Shown here one piece after another: positions 394 to 60,800 of a stretch of 64,000 nt of DNA. This DNA is from Owenia fusiformis (lineage: Eukaryota > Annelida > Polychaeta > Sabellida > Oweniidae): positions 20,717,936-20,781,935 of the forward strand of contig CAIIXF020000006.1 of assembly GCA_903813345.2 (NCBI GenBank). Direction: 5' to 3'. A program made the translations under genes and the position numbers. Every line of letters starts with the position of its first letter. Position 1 is the stretch's first letter. Under the pieces are notes generated by a model. The model was not told the origin of the DNA. It worked only from the letters and a program-made list of their open reading frames with translations, and searched no databases.

Positions 394-3300
394 GCAAAAA
401 TGTAGGGAGCCTGCATGTATGATTGAAACACATATTGAAAACTGTGAAGTGGATCTAATGTTAAATTTACTCTTTAGTGGAACACCTCATAAATGTGAAA
501 ACGTTTTAGAGGTACCAAATGTGTTCTACAGGTTTTACTGTACATGTATAGTTTTTATGGTTTCTTTATTTTACTTTACAACTGGATCATTTATATTTTA
601 AGTTTAATGCTTGTACATGTTTTATTGTTCACTTTTATTCCAATGCTTATACATATACCATGATAAATACAATCCAGCTGATCTTATTATGAATTGATTT
701 ATGATTTTCAGTTTCTACTTAATGACACCGAGCAGTTTACAGTGAATGCTGAAAATCGTGTTGGTTGGCAGTTTGAGACAGACCTTGGACCAATCAGCTA
801 TGAGCATTCCTTGGGCCATGATATATTTTTCCTTGGAATCAAAGATGGCGCTGCACCTATCATCGGAAACAGCTATCAGTTTTTACGAAAACCATCAACA
901 ATTTTCTCAATAGGTGTTGATGTAGAGGTTTCAGGTATATAGTGGATTGTTTGACTTTATGATATAAGACTTCATAGATAACTTTTTTTCGTATTTATTG
1001 ACAAAAGGTATAAAGTATAGATATACCAAAGACTATGTATTGTTAATGTTAAAAACAAAAAATTCATTTTGATATACAAGTTTTCGTTTTATAGCTACAA
1101 CTTCTTCATGTAAACTTGTATATCAAAATTTTTTTTTACTACCAATGACTTAATACTAGGTTTTAATACAACAAAAATACTTGACACTGGCTTTAATTTT
1201 CAGGCAACGAGTCAAGTATTATTACGTCAAACCCATCAATAGATTACAACACAACATATGTCATGGCAACAGAAAACACAAGTGTCGTCATTGACAACCT
1301 CCTGCCCTCTAGTCGCTACAGGTTCACAGTAGTTGCTGAGACTGCGGCAGGATTGGGGCCAGTAGCTGTGGAAACAACAGCAAAAACACGTAAGAGGATT
1401 CAAAATTTGTGTTTGTTGTCTTATCTAGGGAGTTGATTTACATATCATATACAGTAAAACTTGTCCAGTGACAATAGTGTCCAACTTTTTCCTGTCTAGT
1501 TTGGGTATTCAGCATCTGTAACAATATACATTCAGTGAATAAGGTGGTGACACTTATGTCATGTCATGTTAATGCTTTGAAATATTTGAGGCCTATTGAA
1601 ACTGGACTGAGAAAAGTTTTCACATTTAGAGGTGTTCATATAAGAGAGGTGTTTGGGTTAGGGCGGTGTTCTTATTTACAGGTTTCACTACATACATGTA
1701 CAAGTTGCTGCATAACATGAACCAATGTGCAATCAATACATGAAAATAGTCATTCAACAATTCGAAATTGATTATGGTTTTATCACATTCATAAAGGAAA
1801 CAGTTAATCTTGATTAATTGGCCTTGAAACATAATGATACATTATTTATGATTGTAGTTACCTTGACAACACAGGTTGTTACCACGGATGCCCCTACATC
1901 TGAAAGTGATGTCACAACAGATGCTTTGACAACAGCTCTTCAAACCTCACCACCGTTAGCACAAGGATTAAGTGAACGTGACGTCCCTATTGTGATTGGT
2001 GCAAGTGTCGTAGGAGGACTCGTATTGATTATTATTGTGGCTGTGATTGTTTACTTTTGTTGTCGCCATAGACGACAAAAACAAAGGAGAAACAAACCGA
2101 TTTATTGTAAGTAAATATTTAAATAATTTATTCAATTCTGGTGCTCTGTTCCGGACATTTGAACCCCATCCCATTTAACACATCTTTCATTTCATGCACA
2201 TGCTCATTGTATATGTGAAATTATTTTGCATGTTAATTTATTGTTCATGTATGAATATTTGTTTATTCCATATGTTAATTGTTTAACATGTTTCTCCTTT
2301 ATTTAATATAAGTCAGCAGCTATGTGTCTGTACGCATTGTACATGTCTCTTCTGTTGTACAGATACATTGTACATGTTTATTGTTTGCGTGACTTGTACA
2401 TGTTTCAGTTGTGCCTCCCCCTAGTGCAATACCAACAGAGCGCTCTGTAGCTGCTGGCACACAAGCTTCTACCAGGTAACAGATACAATAAAGCCCTTCA
2501 GTGTTTAGTGTGCTTTCTTTTGGCTTGTTATGGTGTCACTCCTGTAAATACCACTTCCGGGTAGGACAGTGTTTTTTAATACTTTAAAAACGAAGCCATG
2601 CCAACTTCAATGGTGTGTATAGTAGGTTTAAGTGTATGCAATGTGGCCATTTGAGGTAAAGCTGAGGCCAAGTACTTTCTAATTGTGCCATTTTAAGAAA
2701 AAAATCGCAAGAATATAGTCCCGTAAACTGGAACTACTTTATTCGTTAATTTTCATCGGTGAAGCAGGGATTTTACCTAAAAATGAGTCCCTATGTTGGC
2801 GTAGTGATATTTAAAAATCGAGACGCAAACCCTATGTTAAATATAGTGTCAAGATGAAGGTTATGTATAGGGGAACGCAGAAATATAGTCATTGTATGGG
2901 CTAGTTCGTTCGAAAATGGCGATATGTACCCCAGAACTTGAATTTTGTGATTTTTTTCAATCCTTTTCAATGATTTACCGTAGTGACACCTTAATATCCC
3001 CGCCTCAGATTGGCTGCCATTTGTGCAGAGACCATGGATGTTGTAGAATTTCAAAATAGAGTCGATATTTACATTCAGGCTAGGCCACACAATGCTTTTA
3101 ATTCACATTTTAACATCCTGTGCCTATCAGAATGGCCAAACGGGGGCCCAAAGGGATCATAAATGGGAGAAAATCAACTGGAATTCCATCAAAATTGCTG
3201 GTCATTTCTCCATAAATTACATGATTTTAAGGTTCCATAGCTCATTTAAATTGCTACAATGTTGCAAATTATCATTTTTACAGGCTAAATAAACACGCCA

Positions 3301-6300
3301 GGTGTATCACAGGAAGAGTAATCAAGATTAATTTGTAAATTGCTACATTGTAGCAATGGTATGAGTATGATGTCATAATACACTGGGGCCTTACTGACGT
3401 AATTAGGAGAAAAAGGGCAAATTTTGCACTTGGGGACCACATTTGACTCAAAATATTTGCATTTAGCAACATACATTTCAGTTCATTCTGTGTAATACTT
3501 GAAAGGCATTGCTATAGTGATTGACAAAATGAAATAATCTCGGAGATTTTGCGTCTAAATTTTTTGCATGAGATTTCTGAAGTTGATGACCCAATTTTAG
3601 GTCATTTTGGCCAGTTTTTAGAGACTCAGCCCTCACCTATTTCCCCAAATATGGCTAGATTTTGTAGAAAACGTCTTAAAAGTTTGGAAATGCAGCTGTT
3701 TCGAGCATGAAATAACTCAATTGTTTGAAAAAATGCTAAATGAGCAAAAATTATCATAGTCAAATTTTCCCGTTTTGGGATATTAAGGTGTCACTCCTGT
3801 AAATACCACTTCCGGGTAGGACAGTGTTTTTTAATACTTTAAAAACGAAGCCATGCCAACTTCAATGGTGTGTATAGTAGGTTTAAGTGTATGCAATGTG
3901 GCCATTTGAGGTATGTCTGTAAAGCTGAGGCCAAGTACTTTCTAATTGTGCCATTTTAAGAAAAAAATCGCAAGAATATAGTCCCGTAAACTGGAACTAC
4001 TTTATTCGTTAATTTTCATCGGTGAAGCAGGGATTTTACCTAAAAATGAGTCCCTATGTTGGCGTAGTGATATTTAAAAATCGAGACGCAAACCCTATGT
4101 TAAATATAGTGTCAAGATGAAGGTTATGTATAGGGGAACGCAGAAATATAGTCATTGTATGGGCTAGTTCGTTCGAAAATGGCGATATGTACCCCAGAAC
4201 TTGAATTTTGTGATTTTTTTCAATCCTTTTCAATGATTTACCGTAGTGACACCTTAATATCCCCGCCTCAGATTGGCTGCCATTTGTGCAGAGACCATGG
4301 ATGTTGTAGAATTTCAAAATAGAGTCGATATTTACATTCAGGCTAGGCCACACAATGCTTTTAATTCACATTTTAACATCCTGTGCCTATCAGAATGGCC
4401 AAACGGGGGCCCAAAGGGATCATAAATGGGAGAAAATCAACTGGAATTCCATCAAAATTGCTGGTCATTTCTCCATAAATTACATGATTTTAAGGTTCCA
4501 TAGCTCATTTAAATTGCTACAATGTTGCAAATTATCATTTTTACAGGCTAAATAAACACGCCAGGTGTATCACAGGAAGAGTAATCAAGATTAATTTGTA
4601 AATTGCTACATTGTAGCAATGGTATGAGTATGATGTCATAATACACTGGGGCCTTACTGACGTAATTAGGAGAAAAAGGGCAAATTTTGCACTTGGGGAC
4701 CACATTTGACTCAAAATATTTGCATTTAGCAACATACATTTCAGTTCATTCTGTGTAATACTTGAAAGGCATTGCTATAGTGATTGACAAAATGAAATAA
4801 TCTCGGAGATTTTGCGTCTAAATTTTTTGCATGAGATCTCTGAAGTTGATGACCCAATTTTAGGTCATTTTGGCCAGTTTTTAGAGACTCAGCCCTCACC
4901 TATTTCCCCAAATATGGCTAGATTTTGTAGAAAACGTCTTAAAAGTTTGGAAATGCAGCTGTTTCGAGCATGAAATAACTCAATTGTTTGAAAAAATGCT
5001 AAATGAGCAAAAATTATCATAGTCAAATTTTCCCGTTTTGGGATATTAAGGTGTCACTCCTGTAAATACCACTTCCGGGTAGGACAGTGTTTTTTAATAC
5101 TTTAAAAACGAAGCCATGCCAACTTCAATGGTGTGTATAGTAGGTTTAAGTGTATGCAATGTGGCCATTTGAGGTATGTCTGTAAAGCTGAGGCCAAGTA
5201 CTTTCTAATTGTGCCATTTTAAGAAAAAAATCGCAAGAATATAGTCCCGTAAACTGGAACTACTTTATTCGTTAATTTTCATCGGTGAAGCAGGGATTTT
5301 ACCTAAAAATGAGTCCCTATGTTGGCGTAGTGATATTTAAAAATCGAGACGCAAACCCTATGTTAAATATAGTGTCAAGATGAAGGTTATGTATAGGGGA
5401 ACGCAGAAATATAGTCATTGTATGGGCTAGTTCGTTCGAAAATGGCGATATGTACCCCAGAACTTGAATTTTGTGATTTTTTTCAATCCTTTTCAATGAT
5501 TTACCGTAGTGACACCTTATATAAACTTCCCTTAACTTCCTTTTCTCATGTATGTCCTGTCTTTTGAAAGCTAATGCCAGAATAATTTTAGATAAACATG
5601 TTACAAAAATTATAGAGAACCATTTTACTTTCTTATTGTTTAAACTCTACAGATTCGATTTCATATTTACCATGAATCCGTAAAACAAGAGGGGGGTATA
5701 AATTATATAAGGTACATTTATATATATTTCTAGGGATCCTGATGCCACCATAGACCAGCTCTCCACAGATCTAGATTATGACCCCACCCCTGAGATCGAG
5801 CAGAGACCTCTCCCCAGGGGCGAGGGAGGGGGCCACCACAGAGGTGAGGGTAGGGCCTATCCTAGAAGCTCACAATCTTCCCAAGAACCCTCCAGTAGGC
5901 AATATGTAAGTATATAAAGCATGTTGTGATTGATAAGCATTTGTTATGAAGAAAACTCAACCATACCTTAGATCATCCTCCGATCAAGGGGCTTCAAAAT
6001 CCAGAATATATTCTTTCTTTTTACCCCCTGCAATAAGCAGATGCTTTAGAACTCGCAATCTGATTGGCTGTCGCAACACTGCCACAGAAATCATGTGTAA
6101 GTCATTGCGCATAATTAGATCACATGATTCAGTTAAATCTGGCGCTTCCAAATTGGTTATAGCAGGGGGAAGAAGGAGGTACAGATTCTGGACACCTGCT
6201 TAGGAGAATGGCCTTAGATCTCCCTCAAAAAGTTCACATGAGTTCTGGGACACCATGTATGTAATACATTTAATGAATGAATAATTAATCATACTATTGA

Positions 6301-12799: not shown

Positions 12800-14178
12800 A
12801 TGCTTGAAGACTTAATGTCGCTTGTCCAGACTCTATCATCAAATGCAACTGATATCCTCGTCGTGAGGTAAGTTTAAAGTATTATAGCTCAAAACAATTC
12901 TATAAAGACCACCCCCCCCTAAAAAAAATGAAATAAGGAATCCACCGAATGCAGTCTTGCAAAGTCAATACTGGCGATTGGGAACGTTAACATGCGAAAT
13001 GAAGCTGGCATGCACGAATTCAACTGGCGGCTGTTGGCTGACGGTTTGACCACTATTTCATGTCTCATTTAAATATGATAAATAAGTACAATTTATTTTT
13101 AGATGAGTAGGCCATAAAACAGCAATCAATCAGCAGTTGCATCCACGAATGCTACCTGAATTTAAGAAAAATATAGAAAATCTATCTAAGTATTTAAACA
13201 ATGTTCTTATTTATAAAAGTCATCTCTTGAAATCGGGTGTTGCAAGTTTCGTTCGTCGGATATCAGCATATTTGGAATCACTTTTGACTCTTACTCTGGG
13301 TGTCCTAACAGATGCTGCACACTTTGAAGAGTATCTAAAAGGTATTTCTATACTTTTTTTCCAGGTATTTCGAATAAGCTGTTTTCAAGAAATTAAAAGT
13401 AACGCCTAGTCTTTCAGTTGATTTTAATTTTTTATGCATATGTAAGATTGCTGACAAAATGTGCCGTTCACCTGCTTACAAATTTCTAGAGGTAATTGCA
13501 TGTTCTAAAGGTTTTGCGAAATAGTGACTATGTCATACTTTGGTTAACAAATCAATATATACTTGGTTTTAATTGATTTACTCCAGGCGTTGTTGGTCGT
13601 CTTCATGCAGCTCCATCACCACAAGTGCAAGATGAACAGATAAAATGTGATCATGTGAAGGAACCAACATACCCTGACATTATACGGACGGAGGAGGAAT
13701 ACTCGCATAGATCGACTGGTAACGACGTCAGTGTTGCGACAAGTAGCACTATATACTAGCCATCTCATAACTACTCGCCCAATTTGAAACAGACACATCC
13801 GATCGTATCAAACCAAGAGGTCTCTGTAAATCACCCAAGCTAAGAATGGGCACCCGTCCTTTGAGACAGTCATCAGCAGATGTTGACTTCTTTGATATTG
13901 ATTCTAAGATTTACAATGCCATGATGTGCCAACGTTTGTCCACGAGACCAAAAATAAAGCTCGGGATCGGTGAAGTGAGGCCTGGAGCACATGAGCCCCC
14001 ATGCATAAAAGAAACGCCTCTCATTACAACAGCCCAATCCAAGCACGTAGACGAAGGACTTAATAGTAATACTCAGAAACAGTTCAAAAAGAGGTCGCTT
14101 GAGAAACGGATAACAAAGTCATTGACGCCCAAAAAGTTCATTGCTTTTAGACGAACCCGTATATCACCTAACAAATAG
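12800..14178 (+). CDS. Unknown protein, paralogue A of the pair (frame-broken or with a 50-bp intron)
   Basis: Exon 1 is 12800-12867, exon 2 is 13220-13341 and exon 3 starts at 13587. Phases 2 and 1 match those of paralogue B. Encoded blocks align with B: MLEDLMSLVQT, LESLLTLTLGVLTDAAHFEEYL, APSPQVQ, then MGTRPLRQS, DVDFFDIDSKIYNAMMCQRL and a basic C-terminus. Exon 3 meets TAG at 13757-13759 and the rest continues in another frame to the stop at 14176-14178. Removing 13743-13792 (GT to CAG, 50 bp) restores the frame and gives 243 residues. Otherwise this copy is a truncated or decayed gene. AATAAA lies at 14290-14295. I recognise no domain. An amphipathic leucine-rich N-terminal half precedes a polar, basic C-terminal half, with no signal peptide. 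Confidence 0.6.
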
Positions 14179-16312: not shown

Positions 16313-16318
16313 TTTATT
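16313..16318 (-). terminator. Polyadenylation signal of the peptide gene
   Basis: Minus-strand AATAAA about 250 bp past the stop at 16571. A second one lies at 16263-16268. Confidence 0.4.
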
Positions 16319-16570: not shown

Positions 16571-19500
16571 CTACTCTAGATCAAGGCGGTCCGGAGTCTG
16601 ATTGCGTTTGCCTGGCAGGGTCACGTGTCTCACCCAGGGTGCTCTGTGGTGGATCCAAGGGCCAACTATCACGCTGTTACAATCGATTAGAGAGACTCCT
16701 GGTGGACAACGCCGTCGTATTCTTTCAAATGTGGCATCATCCCCTGAAAAGTTAAACACATACAATTGAATACACGAGGTCTTATTGTAATATTTATTTC
16801 ATATTTAAAATATCAGATATGGCCTGGATATGGGCCAGAGTCAGAGTGATGTCATAGAATCGTGCTTCTTGCGACAATCGTCAATAGTGATTTTAATTAA
16901 AACTGAGTAGCTTTTGTAGGTTTATGTTTTGACAAACCGATTTTCCATATTTATATTCAAGCGGTATTTTGAGAGTTTTTCAAATTTTCATGCCCATCTT
17001 TTGATCAAATACCCATTCATCAACACTTTGCTTCTGGACAATATCAAGTCGGCAATTCTTCCTGTATTACAATTATGTTACTTTAATCATTTCTCATTTA
17101 CATATTTATTTTCCCAAATGACATGAAATGATAGGTAAAGCGATATTTGATGATGATGATGACCGAGATGATTTCATTGCTTATATTATACCCGTTCAAG
17201 ATATGCCATGCATCGGTGTACATATGTACATCATTTCACCTGTAGGTAAAACCTCTGAACCATATTAATGCACTTAGTAAGTTTGTGTCCATGACTACAT
17301 CCCCTCTATCCCCCGTGAATGTAACAACGAAATCTGTTCCGTCAATGGATTGCTTTGTCATTCAAAACCATGGCCAGAATGAATAATAACGATATGCGTA
17401 ATGGACAATGAAACAGTTGACGACAGGTTTATTGCAATCATGGACCTGTTTTGAAGGATGATTGCTTTGTACGCACTGTAGGACAATGACTCAAATAGAA
17501 GGATGCTAGTTGTGTCACAACGAGACAAGGGAACTAACATTAATTTGTTGATAAGAAGCATTAAGGGAATTTTTCAAAATCGTATTCATTTACACACACC
17601 TTTCATTTTATGTCTGCATAAAAATGCAACCAATCGGGGGCGAAGAAAAATCATGCTTTGCTTTGCGCCAACAATTCTTCGAGGAATTGGATAAATTGAA
17701 TCAGGAATAATGAAATTTGAAGTACTGTATAAAGATTCAAATCGAATTAATCGCGCATAATCGTACAGGTACATATATTCGCTTAGGAATAGCGGAATAA
17801 TTGTCTGTGAACATCTTTATCCCTCGGAATGAACTCTAACACGTTCAAAAACAGCATATAAAGATGTCTGCCAAATGCAATGTGTAATTAAATTCACGGC
17901 CGGGTAGTAAATTAAATGAGATCTGGAACACTACAGGTATTCTGAAGTACTTGTATATCCGTAGGATAAACCTATACCTATCCGGGATTACCGACGTAAA
18001 TTTGCATTAAGAATAATGCTATGATCCTGGGGCTATGATGACTTTTACTGCGTACTATTCGTATTTAATAACACGTACTACTAGTCATCGCATGTAGTAC
18101 GATCACAATGAACTGATGGTGTATGATGTCACTCTGATCCAAAGTGATGGTGCGACTATTGATACTCTAGTAGTATTTGTGTATATAATGTCTTAAAAGT
18201 CGAATAGTTTATCACGTCTTAATCAACCCACATTAGCTAATAATATTATAAGGATGAGTACTCAATAGCTCTACTGCATTTTTTCTATGAAAATAATGTA
18301 CTTATCTATACTTGACTTAACTTCGCCATAGATCAACAAAGGTGTAACATGATTGATTTATTTAATTCCCTCTGCTTACTGTTTCTGTTTACAGTTTGGA
18401 AGACTAATCAAACTTGAAAACCCATAAAAAGACACATTAACCGACCGAACCGACCTATTAGTATAGGTACGCAATAGTATCTCAATTCTTTTAATTTGTT
18501 ACCGAACGAATATGCTCATTTTGAAACCTATATCAGAAAATAAGGCACTTTATTGATAAATGGTTATGCTTTAAATATGCTGGATAGTTTGGTGATACTG
18601 CAGAATGAGCAAAGTATCTATTTTACGTTTTTGATAATTGGATTGCGCCAACTTATGATCGGGCTTATGACATGACAAAGCAGCTATGGACTCGGGGCTA
18701 TGAAACGCATTTGTCACATTATTAAAAAGAACGGTTCCCCCTTTACTCTAGAACATGATGACTGATAACAAGATCATGAATTCAAAGTTCTCTCTATTCT
18801 TAATCATGAAATTCCAAAACAGGAAGTGACATAAACATGGTGGATTTTTTAACGTTATCAACTAAGATAAAGAGTTCTGTTTGACCTCAGGTCAGTGGTC
18901 AGAATGACACTAAACATAGTCCTCTGAAACTGTGACTGAAAAATAATTAACAGTTTTACTTTCGGAAAGACTACTGAATAGAATAGTTTGATTTTTTCAG
19001 AAATTGTGCCCAATATACTTGTACTGCTTTCAATGATAGTCGAACTTTGAAAATTTGAAAATTGTCTGAAACAAAAATGGTGGTCACAAAAAGGAACATA
19101 GATCACTTATCAAATCATTTTTTTCATTTTTTCTGTTTCTAGGAATTAATTCAAATATTCATAGCTCATATCAACAAAAGCTATTTCATCATGTTAAGTG
19201 TCAGTCTGACGATGCCCATTGTGATCCTGGTCATTACAAATGATATGTGGAACTACTAAAACTGATCAAATCAAATTAGAACTCTGTCATCTCAGTTCAT
19301 AAAATTTCAAAAATCAAGCATGTTCTGTCACTTCCTGTTAACCAACATGAGACCTTAATGTAAGCTCTTCCTCTAAACATATTTCGTGACTCCTCGTATT
19401 AGTTACCTAAGAATTGAAACTCAGTTATTAACTTCTTGACAAGGTATGTTTCAAACATATTTGCCATGGCTTGTTATTAGACAAACCATAATTCTCCACA

Positions 19501-22500
19501 ATTTTGAGTTCTAGATTAAAATTGAAACTTTAACTTTAAGCCTACTTTCCCCATGGCAAGCTACCCCTCATTGTTGGTTCCAGACAACCATCATCCTCCG
19601 AACACAGGCCTTCAGAACTCGCACCTTCTTACAGGAGAAGGAAGGATCTTTCAGTGGATGACGTCTGGAACCCTGCGTTCGGAGGATGGACAATCACTGG
19701 AGCTACAGCTATAGTTTGACGTAGACAATGCAACTAACGAGGTCACAATCGTGGGTCAAGGGGGGGGGGGGGTGGCAGCCAAGTAGTGATGTCACTTTAC
19801 CCATTACCTCAGAATTAAATTACATGACCTGAAATCAACTCAGATTCAATTCTTACTTAAATACTTCATTTTGGCCAGGACTTGATAAGGGGGTTAACTT
19901 TTTAAAAATTTCAGGGGGTTCATCTTTGACAACTTCAACTCAAAAACGACCAAAATCAATTGTTAAGTGAAGCGGATTCCCTCTGAACCCCCCCCCCCCC
20001 CCGGAGAACGTGGTTGGCAAGCTCCCGGGGCAAGATGCACTGTCCGCTCATGATGTAGTGCTATTAGCCATATTCCACTTCTCTGAGATTGCTACTTGAT
20101 GGCTATACAAAATAATGATGTTATTCTGTCACAATACCTTTTATCAAATGAATATATTATTGATGGGGCTTCGATTTGTCTAAATAAGCTGATTGAGTAG
20201 AATATATTGATTAGTAAGTGCACTTGCTAAACATTGAATGCTACAAAAGCTAACATTATTCAGTCGAGGCTCTTCAATTTGTAGTCGCAATGTAATCCTG
20301 ACGCTCGGAAACAATTGCTACCATTTGAATAATCATAAACACCCATTGAACAACTACAATTCCTAAAACCGTTGAAATGATTATTTGCATAGGTCGACCG
20401 TTGAGAAAGCAATTAATAGCGCAGTTCAAAGACTATTGAAGTATTTAATGCTTAGATTAAGAATATTATTTGCATAGCGATCATTGAAGTAATTTTAAAA
20501 TGCATAGATCAAGAAATTAAGATTCATTTACATACATGGATCAGAGACCATTGACGTATTTAATGCATAGATTAAGATTATTATTTGCATAAATAGATCA
20601 GAGATCATAGAAGTCATTTTTTAAATGCGTAGATCAAGAAATTAAGAATTATTACATACATGTACATGGATCAGAGACCATTGAAGTAATTAATTCCATA
20701 GATTAAGAATTGTTTGCATAAATAGACCAGGCACTATTGAATTAATTTTGAAGCGCACAGAATTATTTTTTACATGAATCAGAGACCATTGAAGTAATGA
20801 ATTGCATCAATCAATTATTTGCATAAATATATTATAGATAAAAGGCCAAGTAGTAATTCATTGCATAGATCATCGCCCATTAAAACGATTGATAGCATAC
20901 ATATCAGAAACCATTGGATGCATTGAAGCAATTAATTGCATTGTGAGTGTGTATATCAGAGACCATGGACATAATACATTGTATTGGTCAGAGAACATTG
21001 AAATAGTTGATTGCATATATCGGCCACTCTTGACGTAATACATTGTTCAGATCAGAGAACATTGAAATATTTGATTGCATATATGAGACACTCTTGACGT
21101 AATACATTGTTCAGATCAGAGAACATAGAAATAATTTATTTATATATCAGCCACTCTTGACGTAATACATTGTTCAGATCAGAAAACATTGACATATTTG
21201 ATTGCATATATGAGCCACTCTTGACGTAATACATTGTTCAGATCAGAAAACATTGACATATTTGATTGCATATATGAGCCACTCTTGACGTAATACATTG
21301 TTCAGATCAGAAAACATTGACATATTTGATTGTATATATGAGCCACTCTTGACGTAATACATTGTTCAGATCAGAGAACATTGAAATATTTGATTGTACA
21401 TATCAGCCACTCTTGACGTAATATATTGTTCATATCAGAAAACATTGAAATAATTGATTGTATATATGCGCCACTCTTGACGTAATACATTGTTCAGATC
21501 AGAGAACATTGAAATAATTGATTGTATATATGAGACACTCTTGACGTAATACATTGTTCAGATCAGAGAACATAGAAATAATTGATTGTATATATGCGCC
21601 ACTCTTGACGTAATACATTGTTCATATCAGAAAACATTGAAATATTTGATTGTACATATCAGCCACTCTTGACGTAATATATTGTTCATATCAGAAAACA
21701 TTGAAATAATTGATTGTATATATGCGCCACTCTTGACGTAATACATTGTTCATATCAGAAAACATTGAAATAATTGATTGTATATATGAGCCACTCTTGA
21801 CGTAATACATTGTTCAGATCAGAAAACATTGAAATAATTGATTGTATATATGAGCCACTCTTGACGTAATACATTGTTCAGATCAGAGACCATTGAAATA
21901 TTTGATTGTATATATGAGCCACTCTTGACGTAATACATTGTTCAGAACAGATAACATTAAAATAGTTTATTGCACATGTATATACTAGAGAGTAGAGACC
22001 ATTGAAGTAATGAATTTGGTCTTATTTCTAGAGAAAAATTCCAAAAATCACAAGAAATGATAGAGATATCGGTTCGAATCTTTCGAACTGTTTATTTTGA
22101 ATTTATAGTCGGTTATAATTTCAGAAAATAACGACATATCGACGTTTTCATTGTTGGAAAATTTCGAGTTTCGATCATGGGAGCCAATCCTCTTTGGCAA
22201 TACCGCGAAAAAGTATACGCCCTTATATGTATATTATCCTCGTCCATTTAGTTTCAACTGAGGAATCGTGTACCACAACCGACAAGACAATATTAATTAC
22301 ATGATTGGATAAAATAATTTCGTCCTCGCTTGAAGTGGCCGTTAATTACACTAAGATAACAAATTTAGTAGAACGTATCGTAATATCTTGTGAAATAGCG
22401 TTTCACTATAATTTATCATAACACTCGTTTAATGAATTGGATCAAAATGCTGTTGAGATTATCACGATTGGTTTCAGATAAACTTTGCGATTAGGAAAAT

Positions 22501-24513
22501 TGAAATGTGTCGCTCTTATGATTAACACAATAATAAATGACAGTTGTATGCTCTCTCTTTCTCAGAAATATCCTTTTAAAAATGGTAGTGATCTGGAAGC
22601 CAAATTTTTGTTTTTACGCTTTTGTGCAATTTAGAGCATTGTTCTGACACAGCTGGGTACTAGTTCGCGTTCTTCATTTCAAATCGGTCAAAGTATTTGC
22701 TGATAGCAAGGTAACATTAGTTTCAATGTTTCTCATCGTCTTTATCTGTATTTTTGACGATATTATTGCGACATTATATTGTTAAAGAGTATATTTCCTC
22801 GAAAAAGGGGATAATCAAATTATAATCATACTAAATTAATGTAAATCGAATTTCCCTAACTAAGTCAGACATATTTGAGGTTATATTTTCACATGATAAT
22901 CATTGTCACTGGACTGGACTATATTGAGTTATTACTTAGTCTTTACATATTATGTTTTTATAAACCAAGGAGCTTATACTTGTAACACGTTTAATTTTGG
23001 AATAAAAACGAAGAAATTCTGAAAAATGACGTGCTGCTCTTCACATTTCAAATGCTGTGAAGGAAATATGGATTATCGGGATAACTATTCTGGCATAAGA
23101 CAAGCACTCAGGGGATCAAGCAGAACAGAAGACGATCAAGTTTTCAATATTTCAAAGAAAGAGAGAAGTAAGACAAATGTGTCCGTTCTTGTATTTATAC
23201 ATTTTTGAGTGGCATATCATGCGCATTGACAATTTTCCGATTATTCTTTCAGTTACACTCGAATTAATTTCACTGATGTGAAAAGAATGACCACTAGATA
23301 TCATTTCGCATCAATTCATCTCCACTGATATGATAGTCGTTAGTAGTAGCGCAAAATGGTGTACCGGAGCACATTGAGTTCTGAGCTGAGAGGACCTCTG
23401 ACCTAATATGACAGGTATTGATTTTACCTGAATTTCATCATGTGGTTTATTGTCATCGGATTAACGCGTATTGTTTATTCAACGCGCTAAAATGAATAAA
23501 TGATGGACTATAAAACTGCCTATCAAGTAACTATATGGATAGAAACAATTTATATGATATTGAAAACAATCTTGCAAAAATTCCAGTGGGTGTACGTTTT
23601 TTTTAGCAAACACGTTTTTATATAGCCAGGTAAATGTATTTTATAGAATCTTAACAATGGCAAATTTCGAAATATAATGCGTAGCATCAAAACTACGATC
23701 GGGGAAATATGAACGTAGATTATCATCATAGAATTTATGGATTGTCAGCTAAGAACCTCATGGGGAATAAAAGAAATGTAAACTATCTCCTGATCTGCAT
23801 ACGTCTCGTCAAATGATGAAATAAGTCATGCAATCTAAGCATACAACAATCAACGTTCGGTTAAAACGTGCAATACGCCACTGGTGCAATGACCCCCCGG
23901 CCTCCCTCCTGTTGTTACGTTGACCCCTGTTATTACATCTACATCGCAGTTCGTTATTATGCGGATATTTCTGAATCAGACGTGTGTGTTTTAACGGATT
24001 GCGTGGTGCAATTCATTATTGTTTAATCCTTGTCTTTCTGTTATACTCACGACGTGAAAGTTTTCATGATACCAGGAATTACTCTTTTAATTTACTAATA
24101 GAATAATCTTACAAATGTGCTTAGTCAAAGTTGTCAAAATGTCACCACATATGGATTGTGCTTTGAAAAATTACTTTAAGTGGGGAATAAAAATCCCCTA
24201 AAAGCTTTTTTGGAATTTTGGTCACTACTTTGATTTAATGAACGTATTTTTTTTTACTTTCGATTTATTATTTTATTTTCGAGGCATTGAAATACTTACC
24301 ATTTAAAGGATTACTATCTTGTCCATTGTAGAAGCGTTTGTTTTCTTGGCGTGTTTGGTAGTCTACACTTGCTAATCGCGATTGAGAGTCCCTAAGAAGA
24401 TCTAATTTATTTTTAAGTCTAAGATAGTCTGATAACGAAGCTCCCTGTGTAAGTCCTGTAAAAAGTATCATCAGGGAAATGATATTGGCAAGTGCGACCC
24501 ATTTCCAATGCAT
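16571..24513 (-). CDS. Candidate secreted peptide-hormone precursor with amidated cyclic peptide (calcitonin-like architecture)
   Basis: The coding parts are 24300-24513 and 16571-16743, joined by a 7.5-kb GT-AG intron. Both borders are phase 1 and the junction codon is Gly. The product is 128 residues. Residues 1-25 are a clear signal peptide (MHWKWVALANIISLMILFTG then LTQGA). Residues 26-83 form a helical acidic/basic propeptide that ends in RIRRR. Residues 84-115 run from Cys84 to Pro115: 32 residues, with a second Cys at 93, and GKR (116-118) follows. Gly is the amide donor and Lys-Arg the convertase site. A 10-residue tail follows. Vertebrate calcitonin also has 32 residues, an N-terminal disulfide and Pro-amide, but its Cys are closer together than the eight-residue gap here. 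The family is therefore unproven. A donor-like GG|GTGAGA within the last exon could allow alternative splicing. AATAAA lies at 16313-16318. Confidence 0.6.
17000..19570. other. Intron sequence of the peptide gene, no other gene seen
   Basis: AT-rich DNA inside the 7.5-kb intron between 16744 and 24299. Several short open frames occur on both strands but none has plausible splice borders or recognisable composition. Confidence 0.4.
19576..19688. repeat. Interlocked inverted repeats (pseudoknot topology)
   Basis: ggttccagac (19576-19585) pairs with gtctggaacc (19663-19672). catcctccgaac (19592-19603) pairs with gttcggaggatg (19677-19688). The arms occur in the order a-b-a'-b', which interlocks rather than nests. 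Runs of G (about 19759-19773) and of C (about 19988-20003) lie nearby. Confidence 0.6.
20390..20985. repeat. Degenerate satellite border, about 60-70 bp period
   Basis: Loose repeats of the motifs 'agatcagagaccattgaagt', 'aattgcatagat' and 'attatttgcata'. They become more regular rightward and grade into the 64-bp array, so they look like the older edge of the same satellite. Confidence 0.6.
20986..21960. repeat. 64-bp satellite, about 15 copies, each with a CRE-like TTGACGTAAT
   Basis: The landmark TGACGTAATA (or close variant) starts at about 21031, 21095, 21158, 21222, 21286 and 21350, and continues at 63-64-bp steps to about 21926. The unit combines 'gccactcttgacgtaataca', 'ttgttcagatcag', 'aacattgaaata' and 'ttgattgtatata'. 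Copies differ by single bases and occasional 1-bp indels. It lies in the intron of the peptide gene. Confidence 0.9.
22959..22964 (+). promoter_or_regulatory. TATA box ahead of the short plus-strand exon
   Basis: TATAAA lies 62-67 bp before an ATG at 23026, leaving room for a short 5' UTR of about 35 bases. Confidence 0.35.
23026..23167 (+). CDS. Candidate first coding exon of an unknown small gene
   Basis: An ATG at 23026 opens 47 codons ending at a good donor (AGAGAA|gtaagac), phase 1. The encoded start is Cys-rich (MTCCSSHFKCC) and continues polar, with acidic and basic patches (RTEDDQVF, SKKER). There is no signal peptide or known domain. A TATA box lies upstream. No convincing following exon was found, so this may be the start of a gene nested in, and antisense to, the peptide gene intron, or a chance signal. 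Confidence 0.3.
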
Positions 24514-24659
24514 CGTAACGTAAATTTTATTCTTTGAATTTGAGTCAATTTCTGTGTCGTTACACCACGCCCCTTTTGTGAATTGTGTTCGTTCTCGCAC
24601 TAATTATCTGAGATGGAAATAGGTCCCCTGATCTGTGACTTCACGTCAAATGGTCTCCA
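24300..24659 (-). other. Exon 2 of the peptide gene: 5' UTR plus signal-peptide coding
   Basis: A strong acceptor (ctttattttccag) ends at 24660 and a strong donor (gtaagt) begins at 24299. The start codon at 24511-24513 opens a hydrophobic signal sequence. About 146 bases of 5' UTR in this exon include CRE-like ttgacgtgaagtca near 24640. Confidence 0.5.
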
Positions 24660-26109
24660 CTGGAAAATAAAGAAATGCGGCACTGGGTATTTTATGCCAT
24701 AATATGACGTTTCTCTCTATCGGTTAATGTCTAAATCAAATCACAACGTATGACACCTACGCTAACGTAATCCATCAGCAAAACATCAACAAAATATAGA
24801 GCATTACAATAAGAAAGAACAAAAGCGTGTACGATTGAATAACATCTGAGTTCAAGTTGATAAGACTGGAACTTGGTTCAACTTTAAAAGAGGGAGATAG
24901 GTTGTATGCTGAAAAGATCAAAGTGGAGATCCATCCGGATCAAGAATCGAAGAAAAACATATCTTCTAATAAAGTAAATATTGATATTGACTGGAAGCAT
25001 TACTTCTTCTAATATTATTTCCGTTATGATGACCTGTATTTACATGTAGCGACTGTCACATGTATACTCCACCGTCCGAGTTTTGTTGTTTACGGAAACC
25101 AAATTATTCATTTGCATCTTTTATCACATCCTTTATAGTCTATCGTGCGAATGAATTCTAATTTATAGTGTGCGAAAAACTGTTTTCTCGAAGTAGCAGT
25201 TCAAATCGTAACATAGGAATAATCTAGTGGAGAACTCACTGTGGAGCTATAGTCCAAATTTTAAGCTGTGCTTTCTCTTCATAAAAACGTATTTTGAGTC
25301 ATCTAAATTGGTAAAAAGATTCACGTTCATGTAATACTCGTGTATAGTGACCCTTATGTCTCGAGAATACGACCAGGACCTCAGTTTAACATGTCAATAT
25401 GATCACTTTACTAATTTGTTTGTTAATTTGTTTTATATTTATTTACTTCTTTGATATTCGGCATGTGTTAGTTGTTTGCAAGCCTAATAATGTCATTTTC
25501 AATCAATATGTGCTCAACAGCAAGTTGCTTTTCATGAACAAATTGCTGCCTAGGTAAATTGCTGCCTAGGTGACGCTCGAGACCTCACTAGTCACACCAT
25601 ATGTATGATTAACAAGATTTGAATAATTCACGGGACGGTGTGCCGACTTAACAATAAGCAAATTAACGAGACGGGGTGATATGAGTCAGTGGATAGGAGA
25701 CTGGGAAATAAAACTTGTCCGTCAAACTCTTCTCCATGGTAATCATTGTCTTTCCAAACGATTTCTCAGTAAAAAATACCTCAAAATCGTCAAGGCGACT
25801 CTTGTATTCTATTGAGATTTAAAAGAGAGTGCATATCATCGCTCGTTTATCATTGCTGGACAAACGATATGAAAACATGCCCACTGCTAATAAATGCAAT
25901 CATTTATATATGGAAATGATTAAGTTATAAAAGCAAGCTATAAAACATATCCAATATTAACCCATGATGTTTATCCTATCCTCTGCACAGTACTTATGAA
26001 TTAAAACACGGTATTTATTATTATATATAGGCCCAGCTCTCCGAAACAAACAAAAATACAAATCAACTATTTTCTAGTAAAATAAATGTAATTACCTTCG
26101 AAAACTTAC

Positions 26110-26442
26110 CGTGGGATCCTTAATTTCTTAATTTAAAATAAGTTCTTTGATTCGTGTCGTGTACTCATCAAAGGCGACATAATAAAGTAGAGTATCTGAG
26201 ATTTTAATGTAACTTTTATATTGCGCTAATCCTAAATAGATGCGCTGTTGAGTCGAGATAGCGGAATATGAACAATCTAACCGTCGATAATCGCTGGTAA
26301 TCTAAAGGTATTGCTGCGTAACTTTAATAAAATAACGCGCGAAATCGACTCTTGATGCTTTGTCAACCGCTAGCTCTGCCTGTCGTAAACCGAATTGTCT
26401 TTTGGTTCTGGAACTTCGTATTTTATTCAGCAAATGACGTCA
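26110..26442 (-). promoter_or_regulatory. TATA promoter, CRE and 5' UTR exon of the peptide gene
   Basis: On the minus strand a TATAAAA box (26214-26220) is followed by about 80-100 bases without an ATG that end at a strong donor (CACG|gtaagt) at 26110. This fits a non-coding first exon spliced to the acceptor at 24660. A palindromic CRE, TGACGTCA, lies at 26435-26442, about 215 bp upstream of the TATA box. TATA plus CRE is common in neuropeptide promoters. The link to the peptide exons is inferred from strand and order. Confidence 0.5.
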
Positions 26443-34456: not shown

Positions 34457-35749
34457 ATGTTATTCGTTGAGAGCTGTTTTGTAATGCTGGAAGATATAAT
34501 GTCGTTCATACAGACTGTCGCATGGGATGCAATTGATACCATCGCGAGGTAAGTTTAAATTATAGCATAGCTCAAAACCCTTCGTTATGCAGAATTTGTG
34601 TACTCCACGCAAGACAGTTTGATTATTTTGTTTCTTTCTTACTCCCTCTCTTCTGTTGTTTTCTTTGATCGTTCCCAAATGTTTTTATAACCCAGGGTTT
34701 GTTATTCTACCCAATGAATTGTTTGCTCATCGATGTGGACAGTCACAATTTAGAATGTTATTGAAACGACCAGTAACATTAAACATATACGCTGATCTTA
34801 TGTTTGATTTATTATAGTTTGATGAAGAGTCAACTCTATACGGATCTTGTCAGTCTGTTTGGTCGTTTGTCAGCTTGTTTGGCGTCGCTTCTGAAACTCA
34901 TACTATGTGTCCAACGAAATGCTGCATACTTGAAAGACTATCTTAACGAAGGTGATTGTTTCTAGCTTTTTCGAATATGCACCTACTTTAATTTATAATC
35001 TTTTTAACTATATGTAGAATTATTTATTTCAAAGTAAATTCTGGCGTTTTTAATTCATATTTATTTTTATTTTATTGATTGCAGGAGTTATTGACTGTTC
35101 CCACGCGGCACCATCAACGCAAGTGCAAACCGAAGAAACTGGCAAAGATGACCGTGTGAAGGAACCGACTGTCTTTTGCAATACGAATGAGGAATACTCA
35201 GAACGATCGACAGAAGACATCGTCGGTGCTGCAATAGTAAGCCCCTCACTAAAAAAGAGTCGCTCTTTTGAAACGGAGGCAAGAAGCGCCTATAAATCAC
35301 CTGAAATAAAAATGGGCACTCGTTCTTTGAGACAATCACCGACAGATGTTGATTTCTTTGACATCGATTCTAATATCTATAATACCATGCGGCGCCAACG
35401 TTTGACCTCTACGCCAAAAATAAAGCACGGAATCACTGCGTTGAGGTGTGTAGCATACGAGGCACCCATAATCGACATCCACGATTCAAACACATGGTCA
35501 GAGTCTACTCCAAGAGAAATTGTTGACATTAACAATACCGCTAGTATAACAGAAACAACTCCACGGGGGATAGAGGAGTCAAACCACGAAATAAATAGAC
35601 TAAATACAGAACAACGATCGCCAAAGAAGAAGTCACTTGCGAAACGGATAAGGAAGCTCTTGACGCCTAAAATGTTGATTGCATTTGGAAGAAACTTTAA
35701 AAATCCGTATATCACTCTAGGGAATAGATACTGTGCAATATTTTCTTGA
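34457..35749 (+). CDS. Unknown protein, paralogue B of the pair (intact)
   Basis: Exons are 34457-34548, 34818-34951 and 35085-35749, with phases 2 and 1, giving 296 residues. A second in-frame ATG at 34484 matches the start of paralogue A and would give 287. The N-terminal third is amphipathic and leucine-rich (MLEDIMSFIQTVAWDAIDTI, SLFGRLSACLASLLKLILCV). The middle is acidic and Ser/Thr-rich. A conserved block reads MGTRSLRQSPTDVDFFDIDS, and the end is basic (KKKSLAKRIRKLLTPK). There is no signal peptide or catalytic motif and I recognise no family. The hydrophobic helix in exon 2 could be a membrane or packing helix. AATAAA lies at 35818-35823. Shared introns, promoter and block order show it is a duplicate of the gene at 12.8 kb. 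Confidence 0.75.
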
Positions 35750-39729: not shown

Positions 39730-40857
39730 TTAGGTGGAATGGGTCGCCTTTGGGTTCCATGTTTCTCTTCTCTTGATCCATAGCCATCAGGAGCTGTCTT
39801 CTGCTGATAAGCTTATAGACTTAAGGGCCTTCTTGAGCTCTTTGGGTTGCAGCCCTAGTTTAGACAAAAGGGTTCTAACTGTTGTTGCTGGAAATCCTCT
39901 GCAGCCAACTTCAATAGGGAAGACAGATGTGTGCCAACCTCTGGACTCAGCTTCCTCCGCAAGGCCTTGGTATTTTGTTGCTTTTAACTCGTGTGAGACT
40001 TCCAGTCTATCCTCCCAAGGGACTGTCAGTTCGATAATGAGAATAGTCTTGGTCAAGTTTGAAGTCATAACCATATCTGGGCGTAGGGTCGTTACTGCCA
40101 CATTCTGAGGAAAGACAAGTTTCTGGTGAAGGTCCACTTGGAGTTGCCAGTCTGTTGCGCTCGCTAAGATGCTAGACCTGGGCTGTGATTTGCTGGAGGA
40201 GTTTGCAGCTTTGGGTTTTCCTTCCCTGATGAAGCCAATGCTCTGGTGTTGCTGGGGGATCAAACCACTGTTGGCAACGCCTCTCTGCTGGTCCACATAT
40301 TTAGCAATTTCCTGGAGCACTCTGTTGTGTCTCCATGTGAACCTTCCTTCACTCAAGGACTGGGGACAGGAACTTAGGATGTGACGTAGATTGCAACAGT
40401 CACCTTTGCACAGAGTGCACTTGTCAGACTCTTCTTTGCCCCATACCCTCAGATTGGTTGGAGTTGGCAAAAGATCTGCAAAAGCGCGAAGAAGAAAACT
40501 TAGGCGGCCCTGGTCCTGGGTCCAAAGCTCTTTCCAAGTGAGAGGCCTCCCAAGGGCTGCCTCCCAGTTAGTCCAGCTCCCTTGCTTGGCCTGCCCTACT
40601 GCTCTGACGTGTCTTTCTTCTTCAATAGACCGCCTCACCTCCTGTACAATTTGGCTCCTTTACTCCTTCGGGGTGACTGCTTGGGGACCATAGTGTCCCA
40701 GGCCTAAACGACCTTTGCATACAACCCCGACTATGTCTTTGTGTCGCAGTCTCTCCTCTGCTTCCCTGATAGCTTGTTGAGGTCTCCACTTTCTGCCGCA
40801 TGACATGCCTTCGCCTACAGTGTTGACCTTCTTGTCTTTTGACATTCGGAGTGTAGT
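39730..40857 (-). pseudogene. 5'-truncated R2-like LINE, C-terminal part of the polyprotein
   Basis: One minus-strand frame from about 40857 to a TAA at 39730-39732, broken by an in-frame TAA (40660-40662) and TGA (39787-39789). Recognisable C-terminal reverse-transcriptase features: GRKWRPQQAIREAEERLRHK, ARLSFLLRAFADLLPTPTNL with slight variation, a zinc knuckle CTLCKGDCCNLRHILSSC (CCHC-type), RWRH-like FTWRHNRVL, an endonuclease-like stretch and a terminal WLWIKRRETW box after the TGA. These match the C-terminal region of type-1 retrotransposons of the R2-like group. The catalytic RT domain is missing because the fragment starts exactly where the right-hand 386-bp repeat ends. Confidence 0.8.
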
Positions 40858-57800: not shown

Positions 57801-60800
57801 CTAATAAATCATGAGGTCAGACTCCAAGTCCCACTGAGTCAAATAATGAGCTAATCTATCATATCATATGGAAATGCGTCACATATGTACTTTCTATTTA
57901 TTGTTTACAATTCCAATCCTGTTATCAGTCAAGTCCTCTTTATACCTGTTCACTAATCCTTATTCATTCTGCTCTATTAAATAATAACTAAATAATTACA
58001 ATAATTCCAAAATGAAATGCAGGGACCACCATCTGACATGTTTATGCCCATATATACTTTGTTGTTTGATTAGAAATCCAATTGCCTGATAGTACTGCAA
58101 TATGTGTCCTCGTAGAGTGATAAATAAAAACAGAAACTGCCTAAAATGATAGAAAAATATGACCTGGACTTGGCAGTAAGTCAAAATGTATTAGACAAAT
58201 ATTTACTCATCCTATAATCTATCATTTCTGGCATTTTATTTCAATTTATTTATTAAACATTCACCATGTACTAATATGTAGGTGGAATATTAACCAGTTC
58301 TTTACTTTTACTGTATATCTTCTCTCACAATGCCATCCATTAGATCAAAAACATAGTTAAGCAAGTTTGATCTTTGAGTATACGAGTAGTCCTGAATCTC
58401 TGATGAAACAAAACGAGCAAAATTTTCTCTAAAGCTCGAGGTCAATCCAGAAATAACTCCATATCATCGTAAATTAAAACTTTTCAATTATCTAACTGTT
58501 ATCAACAGCTGAGGGGTATTGTATTTGAAACTGTTGAGAGAGAGGGTGTCTTTGAGTTCAAATGAATTTTTGTGTGTTTGGTTTTACTTCCAAAAAACTG
58601 GAAAAATCAAGCATTTGATCAGAAAATTCCAAATAATGGAACATCCTAAAACTAAGTGCCAACGGAAAAATAAAGACTTTTCTTCTAGAAAACCTGGGAT
58701 ATGTATAAAAGATAAATTGACTGATATGCAGCTGAAAGCATAGTTCACCATTTGAGATAAAGTGAACTGCATATAGCAGAATCATTTAGCAATGTTGTAG
58801 TTTGGCAATCTGGGAAAAATGAAATCTGGGGGGGTTTGGGCTGGGGTGCCATAGCCTATGCCATAGGGCATGCCATGACACCGTGCCATGTTTTGTACTA
58901 ACCCAGCAATTTCTTTCGGCTTTATGGTACACAAGGATCATATGCAATTCTCCATAAGTAGAGTTTGACCCTTTGAATTAGTTTTGAATCAGTTTCTGAA
59001 AAGTTGTTTTATAGGATTATGAATTTAAGTAAAGAACTGAATATAATTTCCTCTTTCTTTGATGTAAAAAAACAATCACCTCTGGAGTTGAGAGATTTTG
59101 CACTCCAGAAATACTGAATGATAGAGGATTTTCTGAACGTTATCATAAATGTAATACGTCTCTTGTTATTATTCATGATCAATACACTGTAGAACAAGGC
59201 AGTGGATATATCAAAAATGTTCTGCAGATATGGATATTTACAAATTGGATAATACTGGCTTTAATCTTGTATTGTACAGAGTCAAGGTTGATTATTACAA
59301 ACTGTACATTGGTTTGGTGATAACTGAGTTTGTATTTGATCTGCAGTAATCCTTCAATGTTGCCATTGTGTAAGATGATTAGTTCTGTTAACTTATAGTA
59401 CATGGCTTGTTATAAATCATAAATAACTTACCTGTGGAAAATGCTAAATCCCGACTGTCAATCACAAAAAACATGTTGGGTATATCAATATGGTGGTGAC
59501 ATTTTCAAATCTGTAGTTAGTGGAGTGTTACCTGTGTAAGAAGAGCCTTGATTATTGTAGCTGGGGGACACCGGAACTGGTGGTTTAGGTGCAGGTCTGG
59601 TGGGCCTCAATGGCTGAACTGGCTCTGGCCTCAATGGTTGAACTGGCTCTGGCCTCAATGGTTGTACTGGCTCTGGCCTTAAAGGTTCAACACCAGCTGC
59701 ATTCAATGGTTGAACAACCTCAGGCTGCACTGCATTTCCAGATTGCACTGATGATGTCACTGGTTTATCTGGTGAGGGGAGATTTACAGGCCTGGGGGGA
59801 GGCCTCTGGGGCTGAGTTTTCGTTGGTGATTTTGGTGGACTAGGGGGAGGTGACGAAGGGGGAGGAGGCACCACTGGTTTGTATTTTTCAAAGATTGATG
59901 GGCTAGTGACTGGATCTTTTAAAGCTGAGTAATCACTGCCTTGGGATTTTGATAAATTTAATGAGTCCTTTCTGACTGGGGCTGGTCTTGGAGGCTTTTG
60001 AAGTTGTAGAGATTTTCGTTTATTTTCATCAGAATCGCTTCGAGCTTTCCTCATTTGTACAGTAATAAGGTCATCTAGACTAGCACTAGTTTGAATTGCA
60101 GGACTTCTCGGTTTTGATGGTTTGCTTATTGGAGGAGGCTGTTGAGTATTTTTGCTCACCATAGGAAACTGCTGTGGTGCTGGGGATACTGGCTGATAAG
60201 GGTCTTTATAAGGATCTACATGGATGGATTGACTACTTGAGCCTCTAGACCCTATGATTTGGATAAAATCAGCAGGACAAAGTCCTGTATTGTTTTTGTC
60301 ATCACGGCAAAAGTACCAATTTTCATTGGGTTCATTCAGCACCGTAACAATGTCTCCTATTAACACAGTCAAATCTTCATCAGTCTCTGCAACAAATGTA
60401 TGGATACCTTTCCCTTGTTTTTCCTCCCCGCCTGTCCCATAACCATATGACAACATATTGTTGTTAGTAGCGACATCACCACTGGAGTCCTTTAGATAAT
60501 CACAATCAACAATAATCTCGATAAAGGAAGTTGGAAAAATCCCACGTTTTCCATCAATTTCTCCTTCAGTCCACTGATCATCAATATGACATATCAAGGT
60601 GATGATTTCATTCTCCATGAATGTTAACTCATTTGTGTTCTCAGCCATGAATGCATGGAGTGTTCTCCCATAAGGAGTTATGGCTGAGTCATGTGACTTT
60701 GTATTGTCTGAAGTAAAGACTGTGGGAGTAATATCGCCTTGGAAACTGCTTACAGGAGGACCATTATTTTCAGTCACATTGATGTTTGTTGGAGTAAAAC

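Follow-up and report, generated by a model that had tools for sequence, protein, structure and literature searches.

A probable gene for a cyclic, Pro-amidated peptide hormone of calcitonin-like layout in the annelid Owenia fusiformis

Introduction

Do two exons that lie several kilobases apart on the minus strand of an annelid chromosome encode a peptide hormone, and would such a hormone belong to the calcitonin family? The locus in question occupies positions 16571-26442 of a 64,000-nucleotide stretch of Owenia fusiformis DNA (GenBank assembly GCA_903813345.2, contig CAIIXF020000006.1, positions 20,717,936 to 20,781,935 of the forward strand), the whole of which is called the window here and supplies all position numbers unless a chromosomal coordinate is given. 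A reading of the letters alone had proposed that a divergent calcitonin-type or new cyclic neuropeptide is encoded there (the original prediction). In this study, we consider it likely, judging from sequence, that a secreted peptide-hormone precursor with the layout of calcitonin is encoded here by a single-copy gene. It is probably a real gene, for a cyclic, amidated peptide hormone that resembles calcitonin in plan and may descend from it, although the sequences show no clear kinship.

Results

A two-exon frame for a processed precursor

The signal-peptide exon and the distant exon had been predicted to lie on the same strand with phase 1 borders, and direct reading bears this out: the phases match, the intron is bordered by GTAAGT and TTTTCAG, and in silico splicing of 24513-24300 to 16743-16571 yields an open frame of 128 amino acids without internal stops (coordinates of all features in Table 1). 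Exon 1 codes for the predicted signal peptide MHWKWVALANIISLMILFTGLTQG and 47 further residues, and stops one base into a codon, in front of the GTAAGT donor at 24299. Signal peptide cleavage commonly follows the -3/-1 rule, by which the end of MHWKWVALANIISLMILFTGLTQG was placed by eye; otherwise its assignment relied on a hydropathy filter. In the predicted precursor, the signal peptide is followed by a spacer of 59 residues, which has one KR site inside and RRR at its end, then by the 32-mer, GKR and a tail of 10 residues before the stop. A script search of the intron for internal coding exons (phase 1-1, at least 22 codons, GTRAG donors) gave no candidate.

The peptide itself had been described as RRR, Cys, eight residues, Cys and a stretch to Pro-GKR, 32 residues in all. 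This succession is read directly at 16604-16717, where exactly 32 residues separate RRR and GKR. After the second Cys the 32-mer continues with N-S-V-I-V-G-P, and it ends in LP. For the predicted mature form CPPGVSLIDCNSVIVGPWIHHRAPWVRHVTLP-NH2, a monoisotopic mass of 3551.855 Da was computed with disulfide and amide, with [M+4H]4+ at 888.971 and [M+5H]5+ at 711.378 for the disulfide-bonded peptide.

Chance expectation and copy number

The strict motif [KR][KR]-x0-2-C-X7-9-C-X14-26-PG[KR][KR] occurs at a single place in the window, compared with one match in 300 first-order Markov windows. In simulations with independent bases, it was found in 0 of 300 windows at 34.7% GC and in 1 of 300 at 54% GC; thus, GC-richness hardly raises its frequency. 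The exon at 24300..24513 is the only signal-type exon with a GTRAGT donor on both strands of the window, whereas 200 simulated 64-kb strands contained five such exons, three of them with phase 1. Multiplied, these rates give an estimate of about 1 in 100,000 windows for the strict motif and the signal exon together, a figure that comes from simple null models and from filters chosen when the candidate was already known. Joint occurrence on one strand, less than 8 kb apart and with matching phase, is rare under these nulls.

In DNA searches of the 498.3 Mb genome, in which only the best candidates were scored and gaps were read as N, exon 1 and exon 2 each matched their own place only. A repeat or transposon is therefore unlikely. 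Scans for tRNA genes and for Rfam families at the gathering cut-off gave no match.

Comparison with calcitonin-type peptides

The candidate was compared with seven lophotrochozoan peptides, namely the mussel CALCIa and CALCIIa, four scallop calcitonin/DH31 peptides and a calcitonin-type exon of the O. fusiformis genome itself. The latter was found in a genome search with mussel CALCIa (E 5.3e-4) at C6:4353013-4353135 on the minus strand. It reads TCAIGGGLSHHCALQGLNDKMQVYDWLKSGLSP-GRRRR, that is, C-X9-C, 33 residues and an SP-GRRRR end, and when searched against the genome with its own sequence it matched itself only. Some 6 kb upstream, at C6:4359063-4358972, there is a possible signal exon of phase 2, which is one of several such candidates. 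Since this separate ordinary calcitonin exon exists, the candidate is not the standard calcitonin gene of the animal, and since about 16 Mb separate the two genes on the same chromosome (C6), it is no tandem copy of it either. That this animal encodes amidated peptide precursors is further evident from an FMRFamide precursor exon on the same chromosome (C6 at about 23.757 Mb, 379-1848 of the local stretch), which contains 23 FMRFamide copies as well as MMRF, YIRF and YMRF forms; the reversed FMRFamide pattern, used as a control, gave no match. Such a precursor fits a lophotrochozoan animal, and its YMRFamide copy has the look of an annelid form.

The original prediction held that a gap of eight residues between the cysteines does not fit known members well. 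This objection falls away, since 7-9 residues separate the cysteines of protostome calcitonin-type peptides in the account of Cai et al. (PMC6002491), mussel CALCIa is given with a gap of 8 and a length of 32 residues in Table 2 of PMC7200681, and the gap in the genome's own calcitonin is 9. Among the seven comparators the gap ranges from 6 to 10, so that the candidate falls inside, and its 32 residues agree with the 31-33 residues of six of the seven. Like the lophotrochozoan calcitonins, the candidate has a predicted signal peptide, flanking basic cleavage sites and Pro at the end for which amidation is predicted (P-GKR at 16604-16615). At positions -7/-6 from this Pro, all seven comparators carry an aromatic or aliphatic pair; the Trp-Val of the candidate stands in register with the Trp-Leu of mussel CALCIa, scallop peptide 1 and the genome's calcitonin, although this pair was picked post hoc and an aromatic residue followed by an aliphatic one occurs there in 3.3% of shuffled tails. 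Many calcitonin-type members have Gly at the fifth position from the end (PMC6002491). The candidate has His there, and as only one of the seven comparators has Gly, the position does not discriminate.

Other features differ. From the second Cys to Pro there are 21 residues in each of the seven comparators and 22 in the candidate; the residue before Pro is Ser in all seven and Leu in the candidate; and the tail of the candidate contains two internal prolines, unlike those of the comparators. Its intron phase is 1 against 2 in the ordinary calcitonin gene, the signal exon of which is itself a prediction, and its spacer is longer than that of the ordinary gene as predicted. Thus, of the proposal of a divergent calcitonin-type or new cyclic neuropeptide, a processed, cyclic, Pro-amidated precursor is well supported by its anatomy and the calcitonin type by its layout, whereas in residue similarity, SP-amide end, tail length of 21 and phase of the intron the candidate does not match calcitonins.

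The Pfam calcitonin family PF00214 gave no match in the genome. This blank is uninformative, because a calcitonin-type exon is present nonetheless and 14 control genomes were likewise silent. A DH31 query (Drosophila sequence) gave no match in the genome, and neither did an elevenin query; these two blanks are likewise uninformative. A COX1 search for a mitochondrial contig also gave no match.

Other features of the locus and the window

Upstream of the start codon, the TATA at 26220 together with the GTAAGT/TTTTCCAG pair could be a promoter and an intron in the 5' untranslated region (UTR). Both are weak signals in the sequence and are consistent with the upper limit that had been given to the locus.

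Table 1. Positions of predicted features of the candidate gene in the window.
Feature	Position	Strand	Remarks
Possible TATA box TATAAAAG	26213..26220	-	TATAAA at 26220; one of five TATAAA in 26500-24500, weak
Possible 5' UTR intron	24660..26109	-	GTAAGT donor at 26109, TTTTCCAG acceptor ending at 24660
Putative 5' UTR adjoining start codon	24514..24659	-	ATG-free on checking
Coding exon 1	24300..24513	-	ATG start; signal peptide and spacer; phase 1 end before GTAAGT
Predicted signal peptide MHWKWVALANIISLMILFTGLTQG	24442..24513	-	24 aa, hydrophobic; hydropathy filter
Intron	16744..24299	-	7.56 kb; GTAAGT ... TTTTCAG; AG of acceptor at 16745-16744
Coding exon 2, terminal	16571..16743	-	After TTTTCAG; completes codon split by exon 1; TAG stop
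Tribasic cleavage site RRR	16709..16717	-	Sequence motif
Predicted mature peptide CPPGVSLIDCNSVIVGPWIHHRAPWVRHVTLP-NH2	16613..16708	-	32 aa, C-X8-C; sequence motif
Amidation and cleavage signal GKR	16604..16612	-	Sequence motif
Polyadenylation signal AATAAA	16350..16355	-	Further AATAAA at 16318 and 16268

Inside the intron of the candidate lies a GC-rich patch (about 19650-20100), which carries a repeat end and in which no convincing frame was seen. This repeat end, of about 90 bases at about 19600-19690, has many dispersed copies in the genome, at no fewer than 40 places including itself, counted among the best 40 of 324 first-look candidates; among the matches listed, all places are on contigs C1-C12.

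Elsewhere in the window, the open frames 13771-14178 and 35054-35749 of the plus strand share 43% identity (E 1e-29) and gave no Pfam match; we take them for a gene or pseudogene that was duplicated locally. Three identical copies of 300 bases, spaced by exactly 1263 bases, were found at 2656-5481. Such a pattern would fit either a tandem triplication of recent date or an artefact of the assembly. An exon at 59485-61566 of the minus strand contains four SH3 stretches (Pfam); further open reading frames extend down to 45877. We take this SH3-rich exon to resemble part of the gene for dynamin-binding protein (Tuba), its link to the frames down to 45877 having been drawn by eye. A reverse-transcriptase zinc-binding remnant (zf-RVT, below the Pfam cut-off) at 39787-40659 of the minus strand is probably a LINE fragment.

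Discussion

Several results weigh against the candidate being a hormone gene of calcitonin-like layout, and some of them concern the gene itself. If the two exons did not form one gene, they would be frames left open by chance, or exon 1 would be spliced elsewhere. An unfavourable codon-usage score is in line with this: measured with a training set of 1179 codons against 139 background segments, exon 1 lies at background level (46% of the segments score as high), and exon 2 scores above most of the background (7.9% as high), yet two of its other forward frames score higher still. Exon 2 is moreover a GC-rich patch (53.8%, the 99.5th percentile) across which one frame of the reverse strand is also open, and the 7.56 kb intron contains a repeat. 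Extrapolated from the rate of one in 300 windows, up to about 26 chance matches to the strict motif could occur in 498 Mb; therefore, the motif alone proves little. Looser motifs were met in the same 300 Markov windows 14 times (C-X7-9-C...PG[KR]) and 28 times (any two-Cys amidated motif). However, the ordinary calcitonin exon of this genome has a similar score per codon (0.017 bits, against 0.008 bits for the candidate), which makes the codon-usage test weak rather than damning. The donor, the acceptor, the stop and the polyadenylation signal are all in place, and the shared strand, short distance and matching phase of the exons are jointly rare under the nulls. On balance, we regard two unconnected exons as unlikely, and a single gene for a secreted, amidated peptide as the better account of the locus.

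The kinship of this peptide is a separate matter. It may be a fast-evolved but true paralogue within the calcitonin family, which would make it the second of two lophotrochozoan calcitonin genes, with calcitonin/DH31-type receptors as its targets, and to this we assign a substantial chance that falls somewhat short of even. The C-X8-C ring, the length of 32 residues, the P-GKR end and the Trp-Val in register argue for such a paralogue, as does the chromosome common to both genes. Molluscs, among them mussels, oysters and limpet, are reported to have two calcitonin precursors, and Capitella one precursor with three peptides (PMC7200681). The residues themselves speak against it. When the candidate was aligned to the seven comparators with the cysteines and the final Pro fixed, 74 of 1000 shuffles reached its score (z 1.55), whereas 0-3 of 1000 did so when each comparator was set against the other six. 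In a profile comparison with hhalign, no more than the last 12 columns were aligned (probability 5.4%, E 0.0072); the P-G-K-R end is among them, and its G-K-R had been added to the comparators by us. Lophotrochozoan calcitonin-type peptides are characterised by an amphipathic helix in the core. Single-sequence AlphaFold2 models, both of low confidence, gave a short helix and a hairpin but no long helix for the candidate (pLDDT 66.9), and one long helix over residues 9-31 for the genome's calcitonin (pLDDT 67.7). The tail longer by one residue, Leu in place of Ser, the internal prolines, the acceptor phase and the distance of about 16 Mb also argue against a paralogue. Because it differs in the shuffle test, profile, tail, LP end, internal prolines and phase, we do not file the candidate as a calcitonin. 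Alternatively, a lineage-specific or undescribed family may have reached the calcitonin layout independently, which we likewise treat as a serious contender of somewhat less than even probability. Invertebrate genomes commonly contain orphan amidated precursors. Beyond the framework there is no residue similarity to calcitonins; a Pfam search of the candidate gave no match up to E 10, and the best match in a PDB search was ribosomal L35 at chance level (E 0.14). Twelve fragments taken from the 32-mer with its GKR end were looked for in the text of 5.39 million open papers; one of them was matched, once, in an unrelated software paper. Nevertheless, in length, Cys spacing, Pro-amide signal and the residues at -7/-6 the candidate matches calcitonin, and the lack of homologues in Pfam, PDB and open-literature text is a weak test; supplementary peptide lists may well contain some. 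A previously undescribed family that coexists with an ordinary calcitonin gene, and that either arrived at this layout independently or split off before any sequence trace survived, is a proposal we put forward tentatively. Two further families with two cysteines have been considered. In elevenin (L11), known from oysters and other animals, the conserved cysteines stand at positions 5 and 14 and hence leave the same gap of 8 (PMC4200219), but the oyster sequence given in that source ends five residues past the second Cys without a Pro-amide, whereas the candidate has a tail of 22 residues and Pro-Gly-Lys-Arg. Excitatory peptides are described as usually standing directly after the signal peptide, with Gly-Gly or Gly-Ala following the second Cys (PMC6617912). 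In the candidate, 59 residues lie between the predicted signal peptide and the first Cys, and the second Cys is followed by Asn-Ser. A divergent elevenin or excitatory peptide/CCHamide is accordingly very improbable.

Neuropeptide precursors are sorted into granules and cut by convertases, their cysteines close into rings, and an exposed C-terminal Gly is converted to an amide. Applied to the calcitonin-like precursor favoured here, this would mean that the signal peptide routes it into secretory granules or dense-core vesicles, that convertases cut at RRR and GKR, that the two cysteines close an N-terminal ring and that the exposed Gly is converted to the Pro-amide. The 32-mer would then be released by neurons or endocrine cells. 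By analogy, its most likely action would be the binding of a class B G protein-coupled receptor of the calcitonin/DH31 receptor clusters, and this is our best guess because ring, tail, Pro-amide and 32 residues together make up the layout of a calcitonin-type ligand. A real gene would give the animal two hormones that bear a ring and a Pro-amide, the ordinary calcitonin and the candidate. According to Thiel et al. (PMC8557429), the pairing of the two lophotrochozoan groups of calcitonin/DH31 receptors with calcitonin and DH31 is still to be determined, and one more candidate ligand would open this pairing to direct test. The idea that a Cys gap of eight is foreign to calcitonin-type peptides is also corrected by this case.

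Beyond the lophotrochozoan calcitonins, the candidate can be set beside two other members of the calcitonin group. DH31, the protostome paralogue of calcitonin, has about 31 residues and a Pro-amide, similar to what is predicted for the candidate; it is described in PMC6002491 as a peptide without cysteines, whereas the candidate has two. Vertebrate calcitonin (human, salmon) differs in its Cys gap of 5, in its tail of 25 residues and in having no Trp-Val pair, but it combines 32 residues, an N-terminal ring and a Pro-amide, just as is predicted for the Owenia peptide.

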